Positions 5,113-29,616 of a DNA stretch of 64,000 nucleotides are shown one piece after another; the stretch's first letter is position 1, and every line of letters begins with the position of its first letter. Origin of the DNA: a virus; IMG/VR virus record IMGVR_UViG_3300019487_000024, positions 1 through 64,000 of that record; one strand, given 5' to 3'. A program made the translations under genes and the position numbers. The notes under the pieces are model-generated. The model did not search any database. It saw nothing but the letters and a program-made list of their open reading frames with translations, and had not been told where the DNA came from.

Positions 5113-8100
5113 ATGCCAATCACAGAAGGTGGAAGATTTACTCCAAACGACCGCATTGTAAGTCCGGGTGTATTCACTCGTGAAAATGACCTCTCAGGCA
5201 TCGCTCAAGGCGTTGCTGACATTGGAGGCGTTGTTGTAGCCCCATTTGCCAAAGGTCCGGGATTTTCCCCTACTCTGGTCAGAAGTGTCGCTGAACTCGA
5301 AAGCAAATTCGGCATCGCCGATGGAACCCTCTATGGACCATATACGTCCAAGCAGTACCTCCAAGAAAAAGGATTTGTAACTGTTTGCCGTGTTGGTGCT
5401 CTTACTGGTTATCACCAGAAGTATCCGTGGGTCATTTGGGCTGAAAAGGGCACATGGCTCCGAGCACCAGATTCCGCCTCCATTGTAACTTCCGAATCAA
5501 TTCTCTCCCAAGATGGACTCACCTTCTCCACCGCTGGGCAGAACACAAGTGCTTCGGTTCATACTTACACTGGCTCGGTCAATTTTGTAAGCCAATCCGT
5601 AACGTTGGTTCTTTCCGGTAGCACTTTGTATAATGGTGCAACCGTTGAAGGAAACATCAGCGGAAAATTCAACTTCACAGGTTCTTTGAACCTCTCCACG
5701 GCTTCTGCAACTTCTGCATCTATTCTCCAAGCAATCTTTGATGCAGGTCTATTCACTGGAAGCGTAGCTCAAGCTCTGTTCTCAAGCACTCAGAAACCAT
5801 TTGACACGGTTGTCTGGACTGGTGGATTCGTCAGTCAATCATTGGATGCTTGTGGAAACCTTGAACTCAATGTTGGTGGTGTTCTTACGGGAAGCATTGG
5901 AAACTACGATGGAAACTTCACTAGCGGAAGTGGAACGTTTGACCCATGCACCGGACAATGGACCTTCAGCGGAACCGAGTATAAGGTTCTCGCAGTCCTT
6001 TCCGACACTCAAAACGCAACGATCAACGCACAGCTTCAGGCTCCCGGTTTCTTGGGGTCTGTTCAAAGCTATGCTCCATCTCCTTCTGGCAGCGATGCTG
6101 TAGGAGTGGCATTTGACCTTGCACTCAGCCAATCCGAAGACGGTGGATATGGTATCTACAATTTCTCGCTTGACCCGGATAGCGTCAAATACATCACGAA
6201 TGTATTCGGACACGACCCACGAGCAGGAGACCCAGAAACCCATGCCGCTGGAACAAAGATTGAAGCTGCATATCTCTACAAGATTTTTGAAGATGACATC
6301 GCATCTATCGCAAATGATCCATCTTCATGGAGAATTCATGGTGATGCAATGCCTTCTGGCTCTTGGAACGGAGAACCTCTCCAATTCACTGACCAGTACT
6401 CGCTGGATTTGACCAACGGAGATTCTTCGTTTGGCTTGACCAACGCCGCAACTCCTTGGGTTGTGTCTCAGCAAATCGCACCGTTCAATGGTGGAAACCC
6501 AACCCGTTTCCCACTGTTCCGCTTGTTGACTCTGAGCGACGGTACGAACATGAACACGTCCTACAAGATTGAAATCTCCAACGTCCGTCTTGCCGGAACT
6601 GTGGCAGGAAGCGATTGGGGAACTTTCACTCTGACGGTTCGTGACTACAGCGACACCGACAAGAAGCCAAAGATTTTGGAACAATTCAACAATCTTAACC
6701 TTGACCCAACCTCTGCGAACTTCGTTGCTCGCCGTATTGGTGACAGGTACAATTACATCCGTTTCGATGGAAAGATCATTGAATTCGGAACTTACGACAA
6801 CCTCAGCAACTATGTTCGTGTTGAGGCAGCAGATAATCCATATCCAAAGTCTTCGGTCCCATACGGCTTTGAAGCTTATGTGACTCCGGTCAACGGAGCA
6901 CTCGGACAGCAATGTCACGCAGTTGGATATACAAAAGCATCTGTCTATGGATTGTTCCCCGGCAAGTATCCATCTGGTGTGGACTTCAATGGTCCTCCGG
7001 TTGGTGCTGATGCTCAACTATCCGCACTGTATCCAACTTCTTCGGCAGGAGTTGAGCATTGGAGAGACAATCTCCAGTACTTCGCACCACTGCCAGTGGA
7101 TGCAACTATCGGAAACAACGTAGTATTTGCTCTTGACGAAGAAATCAGTGCAAACGGTGTTGGAACGGGGTCGTTCATTGCTTCAAGCAATGTGGTTCCA
7201 TCAACATACGATGCATCGAAAGAAACCACCTACGTCAAGATGCGTAAGTTCGTCTTCGGCTTCCAAGGTGGTTTTGACGGTCAATCGCCAGCTATTCCGC
7301 TGAACACAGGTGCAGACATTACTGCGGGCAACACCCAAGGTTTGAACTGTGCTTCGAGCACAACGGCAGGATCGATTGCTTACAATCAGTGTATTGGTGC
7401 CCTCGGCAATGCAGACGAGTTTGACATCAATCTCATTGTGACTCCGGGTATCATCTACTCGTTGCACTCCTACGTGACTATCATCACTCTGGAAATGTGC
7501 GAACGCCGTGGTGATTGTTTCTACATCCCCGATCTGTATCAAGACGATGGTAATCCAACGGCTGGTCAGATCGATGAAGTGGTCAATCTTGCCAAGGAAT
7601 TCGACACAAGCTATGCAGGAACATACTATCCTTGGATCAAGATCAAGGACACGAATATCAACCAAATCGTGACCGTTCCTCCATCCGTTGTGATGCCAGC
7701 AGTTTACGCCGCTAACGACCGTGTTGCGGGTGAATGGTGGGCAGCAGCAGGCTTGAACCGTGGTGGTATCCCACAGGCAGTTCAAGTAACTGACCGCACA
7801 ACTCACGTTGAGCGTGATTCGCTCTACGAAGGTCGTGTTAACCCAATCGCAGCATTCCCCGGACAAGGAATTGTGGCATGGGGACAGAAGACCTTGCAGG
7901 TTGAATCTTCGGCACTTGACCGTATCAACGTTCGTAGGCTGTTGATTGAAATCAAGAAGTTCTTCGCTTCTACGGCTAGGTTCTTGGTGTTTGAACAAAA
8001 CACTGCGGCAACCCGCAACAAGTTCTTGGCAATTGTGAATCCTTATCTGGAAAGCGTGCAGCAACGTAGTGGTCTGTATGCCTTCCAAGTCGTGATGGAC

Positions 8101-8238
8101 GCAAGTAACAACACAGCAGACTTGATCGACCGTAACATCCTTTATGGTCAAATCTGGCTCAAGCCAACCAAGGCTGCGGAATTCATCGTGTTGGACTTCA
8201 ATGTCCTTCCAACGGGAGCTTCCTTCCCAACGGCATAA
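5113..8238 (+). CDS. gp18: contractile tail sheath protein (gp18-like)
   Basis: 1041 residues. The N-terminus (VSPGVFTRENDLSGIAQGVA, then GGVVVAPFAKGPGFSPTLV) and the C-terminus (DRINVRRLLIEIKKFFASTA, FEQNTAATRNKFLAIVNPYL, LYGQIWLKPTKAAEFIVLDF) are typical of T4-type sheath subunits, which polymerise around the tail tube and contract at infection. T4 gp18 has 659 residues. The excess here is a Ser/Thr/Gly-rich insertion in about residues 120-340 (many TGS/SGS repeats) plus further loops, probably surface domains of the sheath. A strong GAAAGAAGG ribosome site precedes the ATG, and a Rho-independent terminator follows the stop. Confidence 0.95.
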   Translation: MPITEGGRFTPNDRIVSPGVFTRENDLSGIAQGVADIGGVVVAPFAKGPGFSPTLVRSVAELESKFGIADGTLYGPYTSKQYLQEKGFVTVCRVGALTGYHQKYPWVIWAEKGTWLRAPDSASIVTSESILSQDGLTFSTAGQNTSASVHTYTGSVNFVSQSVTLVLSGSTLYNGATVEGNISGKFNFTGSLNLSTASATSASILQAIFDAGLFTGSVAQALFSSTQKPFDTVVWTGGFVSQSLDACGNLELNVGGVLTGSIGNYDGNFTSGSGTFDPCTGQWTFSGTEYKVLAVLSDTQNATINAQLQAPGFLGSVQSYAPSPSGSDAVGVAFDLALSQSEDGGYGIYNFSLDPDSVKYITNVFGHDPRAGDPETHAAGTKIEAAYLYKIFEDDIASIANDPSSWRIHGDAMPSGSWNGEPLQFTDQYSLDLTNGDSSFGLTNAATPWVVSQQIAPFNGGNPTRFPLFRLLTLSDGTNMNTSYKIEISNVRLAGTVAGSDWGTFTLTVRDYSDTDKKPKILEQFNNLNLDPTSANFVARRIGDRYNYIRFDGKIIEFGTYDNLSNYVRVEAADNPYPKSSVPYGFEAYVTPVNGALGQQCHAVGYTKASVYGLFPGKYPSGVDFNGPPVGADAQLSALYPTSSAGVEHWRDNLQYFAPLPVDATIGNNVVFALDEEISANGVGTGSFIASSNVVPSTYDASKETTYVKMRKFVFGFQGGFDGQSPAIPLNTGADITAGNTQGLNCASSTTAGSIAYNQCIGALGNADEFDINLIVTPGIIYSLHSYVTIITLEMCERRGDCFYIPDLYQDDGNPTAGQIDEVVNLAKEFDTSYAGTYYPWIKIKDTNINQIVTVPPSVVMPAVYAANDRVAGEWWAAAGLNRGGIPQAVQVTDRTTHVERDSLYEGRVNPIAAFPGQGIVAWGQKTLQVESSALDRINVRRLLIEIKKFFASTARFLVFEQNTAATRNKFLAIVNPYLESVQQRSGLYAFQVVMDASNNTADLIDRNILYGQIWLKPTKAAEFIVLDFNVLPTGASFPTA

Positions 8239-14751: not shown

Positions 14752-15243
14752 ATGGCAGACCTTCTCACAAATAATGAAATGTTCTATACGATCTGGGAGC
14801 CAAAGACCAAGAATCGCTTCCTGATGTATATTGACGGCATTCCAACCTACCTCATTCGCAAGACTGACCGCCCAAAGTGGACGCAGGAGCGTAAGACCAT
14901 TGATTACATCAATCTCCAATGGTTCTACAAAGGAAAGACGGTATGGGATCAGATTACCGTGGAACTTTACGACCCCGTTGTTCCTTCGGGTGCTCAAACC
15001 GTTTTTGAATGGTTCCGTCTCTCTCACGAATCTGTCACTGGTCGTGACGGCTATCAAGACTTCTATAAAAAGGAAGTCACCATCGACGTTCTTGGTCCCG
15101 TTGGTGATAAGGTTGAGGAATGGACTCTCAAGGGTTGCTTCCCTACCTCCTTTGATGGTGGTGAACTTAACTGGACGGACAGTGGAGACCCCGTAATCAT
15201 CACGCTCCAATTGAGCTACGATTACGCAATCCTCCAGTACTAA
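14752..15243 (+). CDS. gp19: tail tube protein (gp19-like)
   Basis: 163 residues, the usual size for T4 gp19 (163). The fold pattern is typical of myovirus tube subunits: FLMYIDGIPTYLIRKTDRPK near the N-terminus, WDQITVELYDPV in the middle and SYDYAILQY at the C-terminus. It forms the hexameric rings of the inner tube through which DNA passes, inside the sheath encoded at 5113. A strong terminator follows 18 bases after the stop, isolating it as a highly expressed unit with its own promoter-like element. Confidence 0.93.
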   Translation: MADLLTNNEMFYTIWEPKTKNRFLMYIDGIPTYLIRKTDRPKWTQERKTIDYINLQWFYKGKTVWDQITVELYDPVVPSGAQTVFEWFRLSHESVTGRDGYQDFYKKEVTIDVLGPVGDKVEEWTLKGCFPTSFDGGELNWTDSGDPVIITLQLSYDYAILQY

Positions 15244-16199: not shown

Positions 16200-16532
16200 A
16201 TGTCAAACATCAAACGAAGTCAACTTGAGTCTCTGATTCGTCAAATTGTGACTGAGATTCTATCATCGTCTGATATTCAGGCGATGGTTGACAAGAATCC
16301 TGAATTGGATTCGTCCACGGCTCCAGAAGATGCTATGACTCCTGCGGAAAAGGCTCGTATTGAGCGTGACGCAGAACTTCAGCGTCAAAAAGACATTCGT
16401 CAAAAGAGCACGGAATTGGATGCAAAGAAGAAGGAAATGGAATTCAACAAGAAGAAACTTGACCAACAAAAGCGGTTCGACATTCCAAACGCCACGAAAG
16501 ACCTTCAACGCCTCAAGGGAGCAAAAATCTAA
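16200..16532 (+). CDS. small helical protein, 110 aa
   Basis: It starts two bases after the previous stop, so is co-transcribed with it. The N-terminus SQLESLIRQIVTEILSSS is another copy of the amphipathic-helix type noted in neighbours. The remainder is a long charged helix, very rich in Lys, Gln, Glu and Asp (about residues 45-105), likely a coiled coil. No function recognised. Its 3' end meets the convergent endonuclease gene with a four-base overlap. Confidence 0.65.
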   Translation: MSNIKRSQLESLIRQIVTEILSSSDIQAMVDKNPELDSSTAPEDAMTPAEKARIERDAELQRQKDIRQKSTELDAKKKEMEFNKKKLDQQKRFDIPNATKDLQRLKGAKI

Positions 16533-17044
16533 AATTTTTTATTTTGTTTTGCAGTTTCGTAGAAACTTTTGAGAGCTTGGTACATTATTTCTGGAGTACT
16601 AGTTCCTTTTAACGCATTTACTCCCCAACAACAGAATACGATGTTTTCTGGTAAATATCCAATGTCTGAATTTATTCTATCCAAAGAAATGGAAAATAGA
16701 CTCCTAGACGGGTCTTCCAACCGTTTTATTTTCATCTCAACTCCGGTATAATAACACTTTCCTCCTTGTTTTTCATACTGATTTTTGAGATCATTTATTG
16801 TCAATGTGAATTCAAGAGGTATTCCTTTCTTTTTATGTCGTGGTGAAACTGAAAGGAAATCATAAAATCGTTTCATTAGTAATTGTTTGGGGTCATTACT
16901 AGAACGTAACTCTTGTCTGCTTTTAACTGCTCTAGCTTTTCCACATGTTTTACACCAAGACAGATAGACGTTTTTCTTTTTGTTCAAATAGAATTCGTCT
17001 AAGGATTTAACTTGTTTACATTTTGGACATTGTTTGTGAGTCAT
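16529..17044 (-). CDS. HNH-type homing endonuclease
   Basis: 171 residues from the ATG at 17044. The N-terminus carries a zinc finger (CPKCKQ and CKTCGK, about residues 5-34). The C-terminal half is the nuclease: KCYYTGVEM, then SISLDRINSDIGYLPENIVF with the conserved DRI-(N/D)-S-x-x-GY-x-x-x-N of phage HNH enzymes, and VNALKG. These selfish genes cut DNA lacking their own copy. It is on the opposite strand to its neighbours, and its base composition is visibly more AT-rich, consistent with recent insertion between tail genes. Confidence 0.85.
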   Translation of the reverse strand: MTHKQCPKCKQVKSLDEFYLNKKKNVYLSWCKTCGKARAVKSRQELRSSNDPKQLLMKRFYDFLSVSPRHKKKGIPLEFTLTINDLKNQYEKQGGKCYYTGVEMKIKRLEDPSRSLFSISLDRINSDIGYLPENIVFCCWGVNALKGTSTPEIMYQALKSFYETAKQNKKF

Positions 17045-17059
17045 AATATATCTTGTGAT

Positions 17060-17069
17060 TATAAATATA
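17060..17069. promoter_or_regulatory. TTATAAATAT element in divergent gap
   Basis: Read on the minus strand it is ATATTTATAA, 16 bases before the endonuclease ATG. Read on the plus strand it gives TATAAATA, the T4 late core, 78 bases before the gp26-like gene. It could serve either direction. Confidence 0.45.
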
Positions 17070-17144
17070 TTTTTTTGAAGAAAAATGATGAATTTTTTGA
17101 GAATTTGTCTATGTATTCTCAAAGGTAACAACCATAGAAAGTTT

Positions 17145-17969
17145 ATGCCAGATCAAATGATTCCAATCACCCGGCCAACCGTGAGCAATCCGGTGCCGCC
17201 AGTTACGCCTGTAGAGTCTAAATTTCCAACCGAAGTCATCGGTCTTCCAAGCAAGGGATGGTTCTATCCAACGGACAACCCACTGTCGTACGGCACGCTT
17301 GAACTGAAAATGATGACTGCCAAAGAAGAAGACATCCTCACGTCACGCAACCTTATCCAAAAGAACATTGTCCTTGACAAGCTTCTTGAGTCTATCGTCA
17401 TTGACAAGACCATTAAGTTGGATGACATGCTCATTTGTGACCGAAACGCCGTGTTCTTTGCCATTCGCCGCCTTGCGTATGGTGATCAATACGATGCCAA
17501 GATTACTTGCGGTCGCTGTGCAAAGGAGAATGATATTTCTATCGATCTGGCAAAGCTTGACAACCGCCCATTCAAGTTTGAAGAGCATACCAAGGGTGAG
17601 AACAGCTTCAAATTTGATCTTCCATTTTCCAAGAAGACAATCACGTTCAAACTTCTGTCCAAGAAAGACGAATCGGCGATTGACTTGGAACTTCAAGGAT
17701 TGACAAAAGTTTACAAAGATGTCAGTAAGGAAGTTACTACTCGCCTCGCACATTTGATTACGAGTGTTGATGGTAACACCGAGACTGCTCGTATTCGTAA
17801 ATTTGTCAACGAAGAACTTCCTTCCAAAGACAGCTTGGCTCTACGTCGCCACATTCGGGAAACCATGCCCGATATTGACTCCACCTTCGATTTCGCTTGC
17901 GGACATTGTGGGTTGGAGCGAAAGGAGGAGACGCCGATGGGCGTATCCTTTTTTTGGCCTAACGGATGA
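17145..17969 (+). CDS. gp26-like baseplate/tail assembly protein, first frame of a frameshift pair
   Basis: 274 residues from the ATG at 17145. The pattern matches the T4 base plate protein family as I know it from T4-like cyanophages: EVIGLPSKGWFYP, MMTAKEEDILTSRNLI, CDRNAVFFAIRRLAYGDQYD, then a zinc-ribbon-like pair CGRC and CGHC, and the terminal FFWP. Position between tail tube and tape measure is that of the tail assembly chaperones of other phages, and its end overlaps a +1-frame ORF across a T7 run. An AAAGGAGG sequence (17921-17928) precedes an in-frame internal ATG (17937). Upstream codons before 17145 overlap the divergent promoter region and are less likely used. Confidence 0.75.
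   Translation: MPDQMIPITRPTVSNPVPPVTPVESKFPTEVIGLPSKGWFYPTDNPLSYGTLELKMMTAKEEDILTSRNLIQKNIVLDKLLESIVIDKTIKLDDMLICDRNAVFFAIRRLAYGDQYDAKITCGRCAKENDISIDLAKLDNRPFKFEEHTKGENSFKFDLPFSKKTITFKLLSKKDESAIDLELQGLTKVYKDVSKEVTTRLAHLITSVDGNTETARIRKFVNEELPSKDSLALRRHIRETMPDIDSTFDFACGHCGLERKEETPMGVSFFWPNG
17949..17955 (+). other. T7 run, candidate +1 frameshift site
   Basis: The zero frame reads TCC TTT TTT TGG CCT. Skipping one T gives TTT TTT GGC CTA and opens the frame that continues to 18195. A -1 shift would meet TAA within three codons, so only +1 (or -2) extends the protein. The mechanism is unproven; a one-base sequencing error would look the same. Confidence 0.5.
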
Positions 17970-18195
17970 GTACAAAGTAAATCTTCACGATCTTCTCTTT
18001 GATCTATGCAAAATCGGTAACTTAGGTTACGATGCTGCATATTCCATGCCCGTCCATTACAGGACATTCTATATTCGTAAACTTATCAAGGACCAAGAGA
18101 AGGACAAGGTGAGATACGAGAAAGAGAAGGCAGCAGCAGAAGGAAAGACCACGAGTCAAGGATTTGCTCGTGGTCCTGCCGTTGAACGCCGTTAG
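17956..18195 (+). CDS. +1-frame extension of the gp26-like protein (tail chaperone-type)
   Basis: 79 codons with no ATG, GTG or TTG at a sensible place: the only in-frame candidate is a GTG at 17908, buried in the upstream gene without a ribosome site. The product reads FGLTDEYKVNLHDLLFDLCK, then YSMPVHYRTFYIRKLIKD and a basic tail ending VERR. It is too well formed to be chance: hydrophobic periodicity, charged helical end, and a stop just before the next transcription unit. It is most likely made as a C-terminal extension (about 349 residues in total) by frameshifting or slippage at the T7 run. Confidence 0.6.
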   Translation, partial: GLTDEYKVNLHDLLFDLCKIGNLGYDAAYSMPVHYRTFYIRKLIKDQEKDKVRYEKEKAAAEGKTTSQGFARGPAVERR

Positions 18196-18485
18196 TAATT
18201 GTTCATACCCGCCAAGATTGCAAGAGTCACAATCCAAGTGGCGATGCAGACAATCCAAAGTCCAATTCGCATCCGGCGAAGTTGACGCTGTGCGACACGA
18301 ATCTTGTTTGCGTCGTTTCCCCAGCATCGGTCGTACATCCCTTTGCAGAGAAGTGGCTCCAATGCGGGAGCAAAGAGCAAACCAATGAACAGCGTCAGAA
18401 ACGCCACACCCGCCAACGTGGAGAGAATTCGCTTTGAATCGGCGACCAATCCACCCAAGAACGTGTTTTCATTTTCCAGCATCAT
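18192..18485 (-). CDS. small membrane protein, two TM segments
   Basis: 97 residues on the minus strand between plus-strand tail genes. Two hydrophobic segments are clear: VAFLTLFIGLLFAPALEPLL (about 27-46) and IGLWIVCIATWIVTLAILAG (about 74-93), separated by a charged loop with two Cys and the basic stretch RVAQRQLRRMR. The size and topology would suit a holin-like or superinfection-type inner-membrane protein, but no family is recognised. A sigma70-like promoter on the same strand ends seven bases before the ATG, supporting it as a separately expressed early gene. Confidence 0.65.
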   Translation of the reverse strand: MMLENENTFLGGLVADSKRILSTLAGVAFLTLFIGLLFAPALEPLLCKGMYDRCWGNDANKIRVAQRQLRRMRIGLWIVCIATWIVTLAILAGMNNY

Positions 18486-18491
18486 GGCATC

Positions 18492-18519
18492 AATCTACCA
18501 TGCTTCTATAAAAAGTCAA
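18492..18519 (-). promoter_or_regulatory. sigma70-like promoter for the membrane protein
   Basis: Minus strand: TTGACT (18519-18514), 16 bases, TAGATT (18497-18492). The -10 ends seven bases before the ATG at 18485, so transcription would begin at the start codon. Confidence 0.5.
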
Positions 18520-18558
18520 GTGCCAAATTGAAATCCGCAAGAAAATCTTGATGACAGG

Positions 18559-18568
18559 CTATTTATAA
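18559..18568 (+). promoter_or_regulatory. CTATTTATAA element before tape measure gene
   Basis: TATTTA (18560-18565) lies 11 bases before the ATG at 18576, with AAGAG between as a possible weak ribosome site. Confidence 0.5.
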
Positions 18569-18575
18569 TAAGAGT

Positions 18576-20891
18576 ATGCCCGACATCAACGTGCCAAATA
18601 GTATTCAGAATGTTGTCCAAGAGAGTATGGACGCTCTGAATGTGCAACGCCAGCTTGAGCAAAGCCTTGCCAATCAAACAACTGCCTTGGAGCAGATGCT
18701 CGGTATTTCCTCCGCACTGAAGAATTCCTTCGTTCAACGTCTTACCCGTGAAGTAGAATTGGGTCGCACAGTTAAGAACATTGAAAAGCAACTTCAAGAT
18801 CAAAAGAAACACACGGCAACTTTGACCGACGAGGCAAAACGTGCCGAATCAAAACTTGTTGAAGATGGTCTTGCTCAACAACTCTCTGCATACAGTAAAG
18901 AACTTGAAATACTTCGCAAGGTCAACGGAGCAGCAATTGGTCCTATGCTTTACTTCTTGGGACAAGCATGGGAACTATTCAAGAGTCTTGACAAGGCGGC
19001 AGCGAATTTCAGACAAACGATGGGATTTGTTCGTGCCACGGCATCTGATTTGAGAAAGGTTGCCGAACAGACCGCAATTGATTTCATGCATGTTGGTGTT
19101 AACATTGACACTGCATATTCTTCCATTTTGGCTTTGGGTAAAGAAATGGGAAGTGTTCACGCAATATCTTCTGATTTGGTTAAAACGACCGCAGTATTAA
19201 AATCTCAGTTGGGAGTTTCGGAAGACGCCTCGGCAGGTTTCTTGAGAAATATGGCAGCGATTGCCGGAAGCTCTATGGAAGCTCAGAAGGACATGGCATT
19301 CATGGCGGGGGCTTTGTCTAATGCCGCTGGTGTTCCTCTCCCTGCCATTATGAAGGATATTGCAACGAAGTCCAATACTACGTTGACAATGATGTCTCGT
19401 CTTCCTACTCAAGTCATTCGTACGGCATTAGAACTTCGCAAGATGGGAACTGACTTGGATAAGGCGGCAAAGTCTAGTCGTGAAATTTTGAACTTCACGG
19501 ACAGCGTGAATGCAGAAATGGAAGCCTCAGTATTGTTGGGACATTCCATCAACTTGCAACGTGCTCGTGAATTGGCATATCGCCGTGATATTGCAGGTTC
19601 CACTAAAGAGATTCTTAGAATTACTAAGAGTATCAGTTTTGAAAACCTAGACGTGTCTCAACAAGAAGCATTTGCTCGTGCGACGGGAAAGAGCGTGGAC
19701 GAATTACTTTCATTGGTACAATCCGAGAAGCAATGGCAAGCAGCCCGCAAAGACCCTGCGTTAGCGGGACGTGTCGCTGCTTATGAAAAGTTGAGAGAAT
19801 CCAACGAAGCCGCAGCAAAAGCCGCAGGAAAGAATTTGGAGTTCTTGATTATGACCAGTTCTAATCAGGAACGATTGACCGCCATCAGCCAGAAATGGAG
19901 TCAGATTCTTGCACAGGCAGGACAGATTCTTCTTCCAATCATTGATGTTGCTCTTGACTTGGTTATTCCAGTAATGGACATCGCCCGTGGTATTGCAGGA
20001 TGGTATTTGGCATTGAAAACTGTCGGACCAATCCTTGCACCTATCGTCAATTTCGTGACGAAGATATTTGAATGGGTTAAAGCTATTGGTGTGGCTGGCA
20101 CTACGGTTGGTGGGGTATTTGCACGGGTTGGTGGATTTTTTGGAAGAATTTTCGGATTCGTGGCAGAGCTTTTCCCGTGGGTAGGACGTTTGTTTGGAAT
20201 GTTCGGAAAATTCTTGGGACCAATTGGTCTTATCATCACGGCATTTCAATTTGTTGTCAACTTGTTCAAACGATTGCATGGTATTGGCGATGCATTTAAG
20301 GAAGGTATTTTGAATGGTATCTGGTTTGGTATCAAAGCAATTGGTGGGGCGTTGTATGATACATTGCTCAAACCATTTGTGGATGCATGGAACTGGATTA
20401 AGGGAATTTTCATTGGAAAGTCTCCCTCGGCTCTTGGACTTGGAATAGTTAAGGGCATTATGTCGGTTGCAGCTATGGTATTTGATGCTCTTACTTATCC
20501 GTGGAGAAAGTTCTTGGCTTGGGTCTTGGACAAGATTCCCGGTATGGGCAAGTATGCCAAAGGATTGCGTGAAGGTGCTGGTGGATTGCTCGCTAAGTCA
20601 GTTGAGAGCGAAACCAAGGCAGCAAATGTACCGGCACAAAAGATTGCTCCCGAACCTGCGAAAGTTCCCGGAACAAATGAAAAGCCTAATGGTGCGGTTG
20701 CTCCTGCGGGCGAGATGCCTCCAATTGAGTCCCCCGATAAGGTGTTTCAAGACATCTTGTCTTCAATAAAGGAACTGAATGCTAATCTTCAAAGCGGAAA
20801 GATTGGTATTTATTTGGATGGACAGTTAGTGTCTGCAACTCTGGCTCGTCAAAGCGAGTTCCGAGGCGGTTTCGGCGTGAATAAGGTCTAA
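18576..20891 (+). CDS. tail tape measure protein
   Basis: 771 residues. The N-terminal 90 residues are a charged coiled coil, the middle is long alpha-helix, and residues about 450-670 form a very hydrophobic, Gly-rich region (for instance LILPIIDVALDLVIP; GGVFARVGGFFGRIFGFVAE; KFLGPIGLIITAFQFVVNLF). This is the hallmark of tape measure proteins, which set tail length and help DNA cross the inner membrane. By the usual rule of about 0.15 nm per residue the tail would be near 115 nm (inference). The C-terminal part is Pro-rich then globular. It follows the frameshift chaperone pair, the standard order in long-tailed phages. Confidence 0.85.
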   Translation: MPDINVPNSIQNVVQESMDALNVQRQLEQSLANQTTALEQMLGISSALKNSFVQRLTREVELGRTVKNIEKQLQDQKKHTATLTDEAKRAESKLVEDGLAQQLSAYSKELEILRKVNGAAIGPMLYFLGQAWELFKSLDKAAANFRQTMGFVRATASDLRKVAEQTAIDFMHVGVNIDTAYSSILALGKEMGSVHAISSDLVKTTAVLKSQLGVSEDASAGFLRNMAAIAGSSMEAQKDMAFMAGALSNAAGVPLPAIMKDIATKSNTTLTMMSRLPTQVIRTALELRKMGTDLDKAAKSSREILNFTDSVNAEMEASVLLGHSINLQRARELAYRRDIAGSTKEILRITKSISFENLDVSQQEAFARATGKSVDELLSLVQSEKQWQAARKDPALAGRVAAYEKLRESNEAAAKAAGKNLEFLIMTSSNQERLTAISQKWSQILAQAGQILLPIIDVALDLVIPVMDIARGIAGWYLALKTVGPILAPIVNFVTKIFEWVKAIGVAGTTVGGVFARVGGFFGRIFGFVAELFPWVGRLFGMFGKFLGPIGLIITAFQFVVNLFKRLHGIGDAFKEGILNGIWFGIKAIGGALYDTLLKPFVDAWNWIKGIFIGKSPSALGLGIVKGIMSVAAMVFDALTYPWRKFLAWVLDKIPGMGKYAKGLREGAGGLLAKSVESETKAANVPAQKIAPEPAKVPGTNEKPNGAVAPAGEMPPIESPDKVFQDILSSIKELNANLQSGKIGIYLDGQLVSATLARQSEFRGGFGVNKV

Positions 20892-29226: not shown

Positions 29227-29616
29227 ATGACCAACGAAGAACGTAAAAAGAAACAGCGAGAATACTATCTCCAAAATAAAGAAAGATTTCGTGAGAATCA
29301 TCGCCGGTGGTGTTCTAAAAACAAAGAAAAATTAGCTAAGAGAAATGCCGGTTACGTAACGGAGTGGATATTGAAAAAGAAATATGGGATAGATGGGGCC
29401 GAATATAATCGTCTTTTTACATTACAATCGGGTCGTTGTGCTATTTGTCTTAGAGAAGCAAGTGAGTTCAAACGAAAGTTGGCAGTAGATCACAATCATA
29501 CAACAGGACAAGTTCGGGGATTGCTTTGTGTGAAATGTAACCGTGGTATTGGGTGCTTTGAAGAAATTTCCATTCGTTTTGATGCAGCAAGAGAGTATCT
29601 TTTACGGTTCACTTAA
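29227..29616 (+). CDS. endonuclease VII-type HNH nuclease
   Basis: 129 residues. The motif CAICLREASEFKRKLAVDHN, then HTTGQVRGLLCVKCNRGIGC is that of the recombination endonuclease VII family: a C-x-x-C/C-x-x-C zinc site and the DHNHTTG-x-VRGLLC core. T4 gp49 (157 residues) resolves Holliday junctions and debranches replicated DNA before packaging. The very basic N-terminus here (about 40 residues, KKKQREYYLQNKERFRENHR) resembles mobile HNH relatives, so it could be either a resolvase or a mobile variant. Placement beside SSB and UvsX favours recombination. Confidence 0.78.
   Translation: MTNEERKKKQREYYLQNKERFRENHRRWCSKNKEKLAKRNAGYVTEWILKKKYGIDGAEYNRLFTLQSGRCAICLREASEFKRKLAVDHNHTTGQVRGLLCVKCNRGIGCFEEISIRFDAAREYLLRFT

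Follow-up and report, generated by a model that had tools for sequence, protein, structure and literature searches.

A predicted +1 frameshift at conserved phenylalanine codons probably gives rise to short and long forms of a T4-like tail assembly chaperone

Introduction

Between the tail tube and tape measure genes of a virus studied here, an open reading frame resembling T4 gp26 ends shortly after a run of seven T, which raises the question whether ribosomes leave the frame at this point to produce a second, longer protein. The original prediction, made on the window (the whole 64,000-base stretch of DNA analysed, part of a 100,409-base virus record), held that a +1 frameshift, or slippage, joins the gp26-like frame to a chaperone-type extension before the tape measure gene, at the position where phages encode G/GT-type tail assembly chaperones.

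In a review of frameshifting, T4 was called the exception to the G-T rule (PMC5009743). According to two papers that cite their work (PMC10885494; PMC12846349), Vladimirov, Gautam and Davidson (2022, Virology 566:9-15) named the tail assembly chaperone genes of T4-like phages; some of these phages are described there as carrying a short gene and a longer fusion gene, and the TAC-N genes as carrying poly-T -1 signals. To judge by these citing papers, both the tail chaperones of T4-like phages and the -1 signal in their genes are prior published knowledge. Neither the title of the 2022 paper nor the papers citing it were found to describe a +1 signal in T4-like TAC genes, and as far as the literature accessible in this form shows, a +1 form acting at a sense codon of the same FF motif appears to be new.

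The gene, its predicted shift site and its neighbours

The features of the locus are as follows.

14752 to 15243, + strand: tail tube protein gene of T4 type, upstream neighbour (PF06841 E 6e-9; phrog_4542 E 3e-26)
17145 to 17969, + strand: short form (TAC-N, T4 gp26-like) in the 0 frame (PF12322 E 5e-16; phrog_150 E 2e-17; AlphaFold pLDDT 84.7; Foldseek matches)
17921 to 17939, + strand: purine block AAAGGAGG and in-frame ATG, SD-like, a candidate element that is not universal
17949 to 17957, + strand: putative shift site TTT TTT TGG, conserved in variant forms in 53/53 near and 113/113 distant representatives (both sets are defined below)
17956 to 18195, + strand: extension (TAC-C, like the T4 gp51 C-terminus) in the +1 frame, 79 codons and TAG (dN/dS 0.11; hhalign E 4e-7; helical model pLDDT 83.5)
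18576 to 20891, + strand: tape measure protein gene, the neighbour downstream, whose product is the presumed client (phrog_58 E 6e-7)

On re-reading, all coordinates of the original prediction were exact. Read in the 0 frame from the ATG at 17145, the gp26-like frame ends GTA TCC TTT TTT TGG CCT AAC GGA TGA; the T run at 17949-17955 comprises exactly seven T, the TGA lies at 17967-17969, 11 bases beyond the run, and the protein ends FFWPNG. The +1 frame from 17956 reads GGC CTA ACG GAT GAG, with a product beginning GLTDEYKVNLHDLLFDLCKIGNLGYDAAYSMPVHYRTFYIRKL, and as had been claimed it has no usable start of its own: the window has no ATG, GTG or TTG on the way from the shift site to the conserved block of the extension, and the mechanical list of open reading frames starts this frame at GTG 17764, far upstream inside gp26. 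The expectation that a -1 shift would stop immediately was likewise borne out (TTT TTG GCC TAA). AAAGGAGG occupies 17921-17928, and the in-frame ATG at 17937-17939 lies 12 nt 5' of the shift site.

The order of tail tube, gp26-like gene and tape measure gene, correctly placed by the original prediction, is the same in the phages immuto, SP-15 and LIS04. Two open reading frames on the opposite strand flank the chaperone gene. Directly before it, at 16529-17131 (-), lies a 200-aa frame with CxxC motifs, perhaps an inserted endonuclease, for which Pfam gave nothing above cut-off; the second, a 97-aa frame at 18192-18485 (-) located after the extension and before the tape measure gene, has hydrophobic segments and likewise no Pfam match. 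Elsewhere the window encodes a recombination endonuclease VII family protein (29227-29616, +; PF02945, E 8e-21) and a very long tail sheath protein of 1041 aa (5113-8238, +), whose domains match from residue 761 on only, the ~750 N-terminal residues being additional.

Assignment of both domains to the T4 gp26/gp51 family

The PF12322 score of the short form is above the curated cut-off. In Foldseek searches its model matched an SP-15 gp26-like protein (E 3e-18) and Aeromonas phage 25 gp26 (E 7e-6); against solved structures the match to the HK97 tail assembly chaperone (2ob9) was weak (E 1.0, probability 0.54) and is to be taken as a hint only. The extension, modelled as a domain separate from the short form, gave a helical model with a pLDDT of 83.5 that had no meaningful match in the PDB, and single extension sequences found no useful match in PHROGs and Pfam, for which profiles were needed. 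T4 gp51 spans positions 13-280 of the 282 in phrog_150, whereas T4 gp26 stops at 235, and gp51 therefore consists of a gp26-type domain plus a C-terminal addition. A profile built narrowly from extensions of the window clade matched weakly (probability 12%) until distant members bridged the gap: the broad +1 extension profile aligned to gp51 C-termini and cyanophage extensions with an hhalign probability of 92.7% (E 4e-7) and to the cyanophage extensions alone with 90.5% (E 1.4e-6). By profile comparison, the extension is thus homologous to the C-terminus of T4 gp51, and the predicted short and long products would correspond to T4 gp26 and T4 gp51, respectively. Both marks of this family are present, the N-terminal match and a gp51-type C-terminal domain on the long form, as are two marks of a G/GT-type gene, the position between tube and tape measure and a conserved overlapping frame that a shift would reach, with an extension lacking a start of its own.

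The family names themselves suggest another function, since phrog_150 is called 'baseplate hub' and PF12322 is T4_baseplate. The shift might accordingly be real and the protein a structural component of the baseplate hub rather than an assembly chaperone, a reading that is also in keeping with some genetic work that placed T4 gp26 in the hub (PMC3004832). The same source, however, lists T4 gp26 and gp51 as hub assembly chaperones and describes gp51 as needed yet absent from the particle (PMC3004832). Together with the position before the tape measure gene, the logic of a short and a long form and the earlier assignment of tail assembly chaperones in T4-like phages, which PMC10885494 and PMC12846349 cite, this makes a structural hub role unlikely, although it is the alternative that fares best. 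By analogy with lambda G/GT, we infer that the locus encodes the tail assembly chaperone of a T4-like myovirus as a short/long pair.

Conservation of the +1 arrangement and selection on the extension

Relatives were gathered in two sets. The near set comprises relatives on viral contigs reduced to 53 non-redundant representatives, the window included; the distant set comprises relatives of Flavobacterium phage immuto and Microcystis phage Mel-JY01, reduced to 113 non-redundant representatives, in each of which the frame was called by an HMM search of three frames (extension HMM i-E <= 2e-9). The extension is in the +1 frame in 53/53 near and 113/113 distant representatives (166/166), and the same arrangement is found in seven named phages or records (Mel-JY01, immuto, SP-15, LIS04, GXN1, RM378 and LR756508), bringing the total to 173. 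This pattern is far beyond chance. Because at least ~600 contig stretches matched each of the two queries, immuto and Mel-JY01, the +1 lineage is abundant; scans of viral contigs with the gp26 of SP-15 and of Atu_ph07 found only the queries themselves.

Within the near set the +1 frame of the extension is under purifying selection. Its median dN/dS is 0.11 (53 representatives, 95 pairs), against 0.13 for the gp26 body, and 57% of the differences in the extension fall on third positions of the +1 frame. In the near clade, the GL that the +1 frame encodes directly 3' of the site does not vary. Database annotation has recorded parts of the extension under other names: small hypothetical ORFs are annotated after gp26 in immuto (L083, 4845-4955), SP-15 (L085, 4809-4928) and RM378 (L086, 4701-4877), and an overlapping hypothetical protein is annotated at the position of the extension in Mel-JY01. 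The first three of these ORFs share the frame of the extension and start inside it; judging from frame and position they are fragments of a putative long form that has gone unannotated.

Alternatively, the extension might be made as a separate protein, through a start of its own, through reinitiation, or through initiation at the internal ATG (17937) followed by a +1 shift. Such a start is hinted at by the SD-like purine block 15-25 nt upstream of the site, which in the near clade is stronger than in synonymous shuffles, by codon -4, which is start-like in 51/60 sequences, and by homologues outside the lineage, with an overlapping ATG in Atu_ph07 and LR756511 and an ATG just after the stop in many cyanophages. 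Against this, 36/53 near and 33/113 distant representatives (69/166) offer no possible start ahead of the conserved block, since ATG, GTG and TTG are all absent over the whole interval reaching from the preceding stop of the +1 frame to codon 5 of the extension. In RM378 and GXN1 the SD-like sequence is weak, and initiation at 17937 would still require the +1 shift. Separate production of the extension is therefore very unlikely. The original prediction had also considered a short internal product from the ATG at 17937: AAAGGAGG and the ATG are indeed present, but codon -4 is not start-like in 9/60 sequences, and such a product is possible but unsupported.

The predicted shift site

The site reads TTTTTTTGGCCT in 50/53 near representatives and TTCTTTTGGCCT in the other 3/53. 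Among the 113 distant representatives it is TTT TTT TGG CCT in 79, TTT CTT TGG CCT in 25, TTT CTA TGG CCT in 3, CTT TTT TGG CCT in 3, TTT TTT TAC CCT in 2 and TTT CTT TAC CCT in 1; TTT TTT CAC also occurs among the +1 relatives, LR756508 has TTT CTA TTC and RM378 has TTT TTT TGG AAT.

These variants bear on whether the frame is changed by the ribosome or already in the mRNA. If RNA polymerase slipped on the T run, part of the mRNA would carry one T fewer or two more and the long form would result; T7 runs are present in most members, and the protein outcome could be the same. The +1 extension is kept, however, in representatives with runs of only three or four T, namely the 3/53 near representatives with TTC TTT TGG, the 28/113 distant ones with TTT CTT TGG or TTT CTA TGG, and LR756508 with TTT CTA TTC; a -2 outcome would in addition need pairing that these short-run variants lack. 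Polymerase slippage as the general mechanism is accordingly very unlikely. Although homopolymers are error-prone and the window is a contig assembled from a metagenome, a sequencing or assembly error in the T7 run, with a real gene that is a single ORF or ends at FFWPNG, is refuted by independent relatives, since 166/166 non-redundant representatives and seven named phages or records share the arrangement, including members whose site, TTC TTT T or TTT CTT T, contains no long run. Of the original 'frameshift or slippage', the frameshift is thus supported and slippage disfavoured. Similarly, of the two directions proposed, +1 or -2, the former is supported, and a -2 shift is disfavoured by the TTC TTT T, TTT CTT T and TTT CTA T variants, which lack the pairing it needs. 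The comparison of relatives suggested at the outset finds the +1 arrangement kept, the T7 run as such not being the signal; nothing in the +1 lineage points to a true run of six or eight T or to an ATG-started gene of the relatives' own, which the prediction had named as counter-evidence.

Common to the sites (173/173) is an in-frame UUU at one of the two site codons with U or C as the next base, so that tRNA-Phe can re-pair one base downstream. UUU_U or CUU_U is found in 163/166 representatives, and the other 3 (TTT CTA TGG) have UUU_C. On its own the conservation of UUU is modest, as TTT is the common Phe codon (~75%). The A-site codon is UGG, rarely UAC, with CAC, AGU and CGU in distant phages. 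Among 59 conserved degenerate columns of the gp26 frame only 2 are without synonymous variation, the second Phe (TTT) and the Pro (CCT), each in 53/53, compared with a share of 27% for CCT among the Pro codons of the gp26 body. CCT is forced if the 0 frame has to encode W-P and the +1 frame G-L, and the invariant G-L and forced CCT place the shift before TGG CCT; CCT is not a slippery codon itself, because RM378 has TTT TTT TGG AAT. The base before the site is never T in the 166 representatives, T making up 36-38% of third positions (nominal probability 1e-11 for the 53 near representatives, which is overstated since the sequences are related). The -1 heptamer U_UUU_UUU is therefore absent, and no in-frame U_UUU_UUY of the X_XXY_YYZ type occurs in the +1 lineage. 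Of the features of an RF2-type site, CUU_U or UUU_U in the P site is present, whereas an A-site UGA and a consistent SD close to the site are absent, the 0-frame stop following 3-6 codons later.

The search for stimulators identified none. Downstream RNA folding is unremarkable (mean z -0.6), and upstream folding over -60..0 has a mean z of -1.2, with 14/53 below -2. Rfam had no match over 17000-19000. There are no tRNA genes in the window, so no effect of a phage tRNA-Trp or tRNA-Phe can be proposed from it. The purine block was considered as an RF2-type stimulator and rejected, as it is too far from the P site and not universal.

These comparisons establish the +1 architecture with its conservation and selection, the site and the homology of both domains.

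Proposed mechanism and significance

A +1 programmed frameshift in a conserved, coding T4-like tail chaperone gene, through which one gene yields two forms, is very probably the correct reading of this locus. For the shift in vivo, its rate, the exact slipping codon and the chaperone role, we infer the following from the sequence comparisons. Most ribosomes would read on in the 0 frame and produce the short form (TAC-N) ending FFWPNG. A minority would shift +1 while peptidyl-tRNA-Phe occupies UUU and the A site holds UGG; the P-site tRNA would re-pair with the overlapping UUU one base downstream, and reading would resume at GGC (17956) CTA. An 80-residue helical domain (TAC-C) would thereby be added, giving a long form as the counterpart of T4 gp51. 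If lambda G/GT is a guide, the short form may coat the tape measure protein encoded next, the scarcer long form may bring in tail tube subunits, and their ratio would serve the chaperoning of the tape measure protein.

RF2 shifts +1 on CUU_U and in few species on UUU_U, and in E. coli RF2 tests UUU_U was a much weaker shift site than CUU_U (PMC5009743). As UUU_U is weak and the A site holds no stop codon, a low shift rate may be enough; otherwise a stimulator has escaped detection. We see about an even chance for the wider proposal, in which a +1 shift at a sense codon pair (UUU_UGG or CUU_UGG) is stable across a large and abundant lineage, has reversed its direction relative to -1 homologues at the same two Phe codons without changing the product, and dispenses with the stop and close SD of RF2, possibly with the nascent peptide or pausing as stimulator.

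If true, this would be one gene family in which the direction of the shift was reversed and the product preserved. The recently named T4-like tail chaperones would be extended to a large lineage whose long form, hidden in the +1 frame, is missed or truncated by gene callers. The family would also offer a natural experiment in which one chaperone reaches two forms by three routes (+1, -1 and gene duplication) that all pivot on the same end of the short form, and a system in which to examine +1 shifting at a sense codon, a process less thoroughly understood than shifting at RF2 or -1 sites.

Relatives with the extension in the -1 frame and comparison with known systems

In other relatives the corresponding domain lies in the -1 frame: cyanophages (S-PM2 and ~50 further contigs), pf16, Asswx_1, ACP17, VH7D, OLIVR6, P-HM1, Atu_ph07 and LR756511. 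U_UUU_UUC stands at the FF codons in 57/59 of the -1 representatives; pf16 has U_UUU_UUU, and VP-1 has no clear site. These representatives carry an SD-like block ~10 nt upstream that is stronger than in synonymous shuffles, as expected of a -1 stimulator, and when VP-1 is set aside, 22/58 lack a start codon near the junction. An ATG directly 3' of the gp26 stop is found in many cyanophages. In Atu_ph07 and LR756511 an ATG overlaps at the homologous domain (ATGA, TAATG), from which a separate start appears possible. The gp26 of S-PM2 (L094, 5472-6364) and of L096-L175 and the annotated 57-aa gp51 look like a -1 pair at U_UUU_UUC, and the annotated cyanophage gp51 is probably the extension rather than a separate gene. 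In Stenotrophomonas phage IME-SM1 (L180, 2971-3813), gp26 reads GLEDFSADAS, as if its T run were shorter than that of its relatives, and continues in a different frame, perhaps through an indel or a sequencing error. For the gp26 domain, a tree of 47 rows needs three changes of mode, with weakly supported deep branches and some long branches that meet.

Among known systems, T4 gp26/gp51 belong to the same family in both domains and have short and long chaperone forms, but T4 uses one short and one long gene (26 and 51), whereas in the window lineage both forms would come from one gene by a +1 shift. The paralogous orf143/144 of phage 0305phi8-36, a two-gene form of the G/GT pair (PMC2147016), resemble T4 26/51 and, unlike the window gene, involve no frameshift. 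Cyanophage gp26/'gp51' have homologous domains with the junction at the same FF codons, theirs lying in the -1 frame behind U_UUU_UUC. Lambda G/GT and SPP1 17.5/17.5*, the latter using UUUUUUC (PMC6316719), lie like the window gene between tail tube and tape measure and make short and long forms by frameshifting; their direction, however, is -1, and no sequence similarity to the window gene was detected. For the tail chaperone of the archaeal myovirus HSTV-2, a counterpart of G/GT, a +1 shift is considered very likely (PMC5009743), and this +1 shift is the likeness to the window gene noted here. Bacterial RF2 (prfB) shares with the window site the shift codons CUU_U/UUU_U and a +1 re-pairing to UUU, but its A site is occupied by UGA and an SD lies a few bases 5' of the shift codons, where the window lineage has a sense codon and no such SD.
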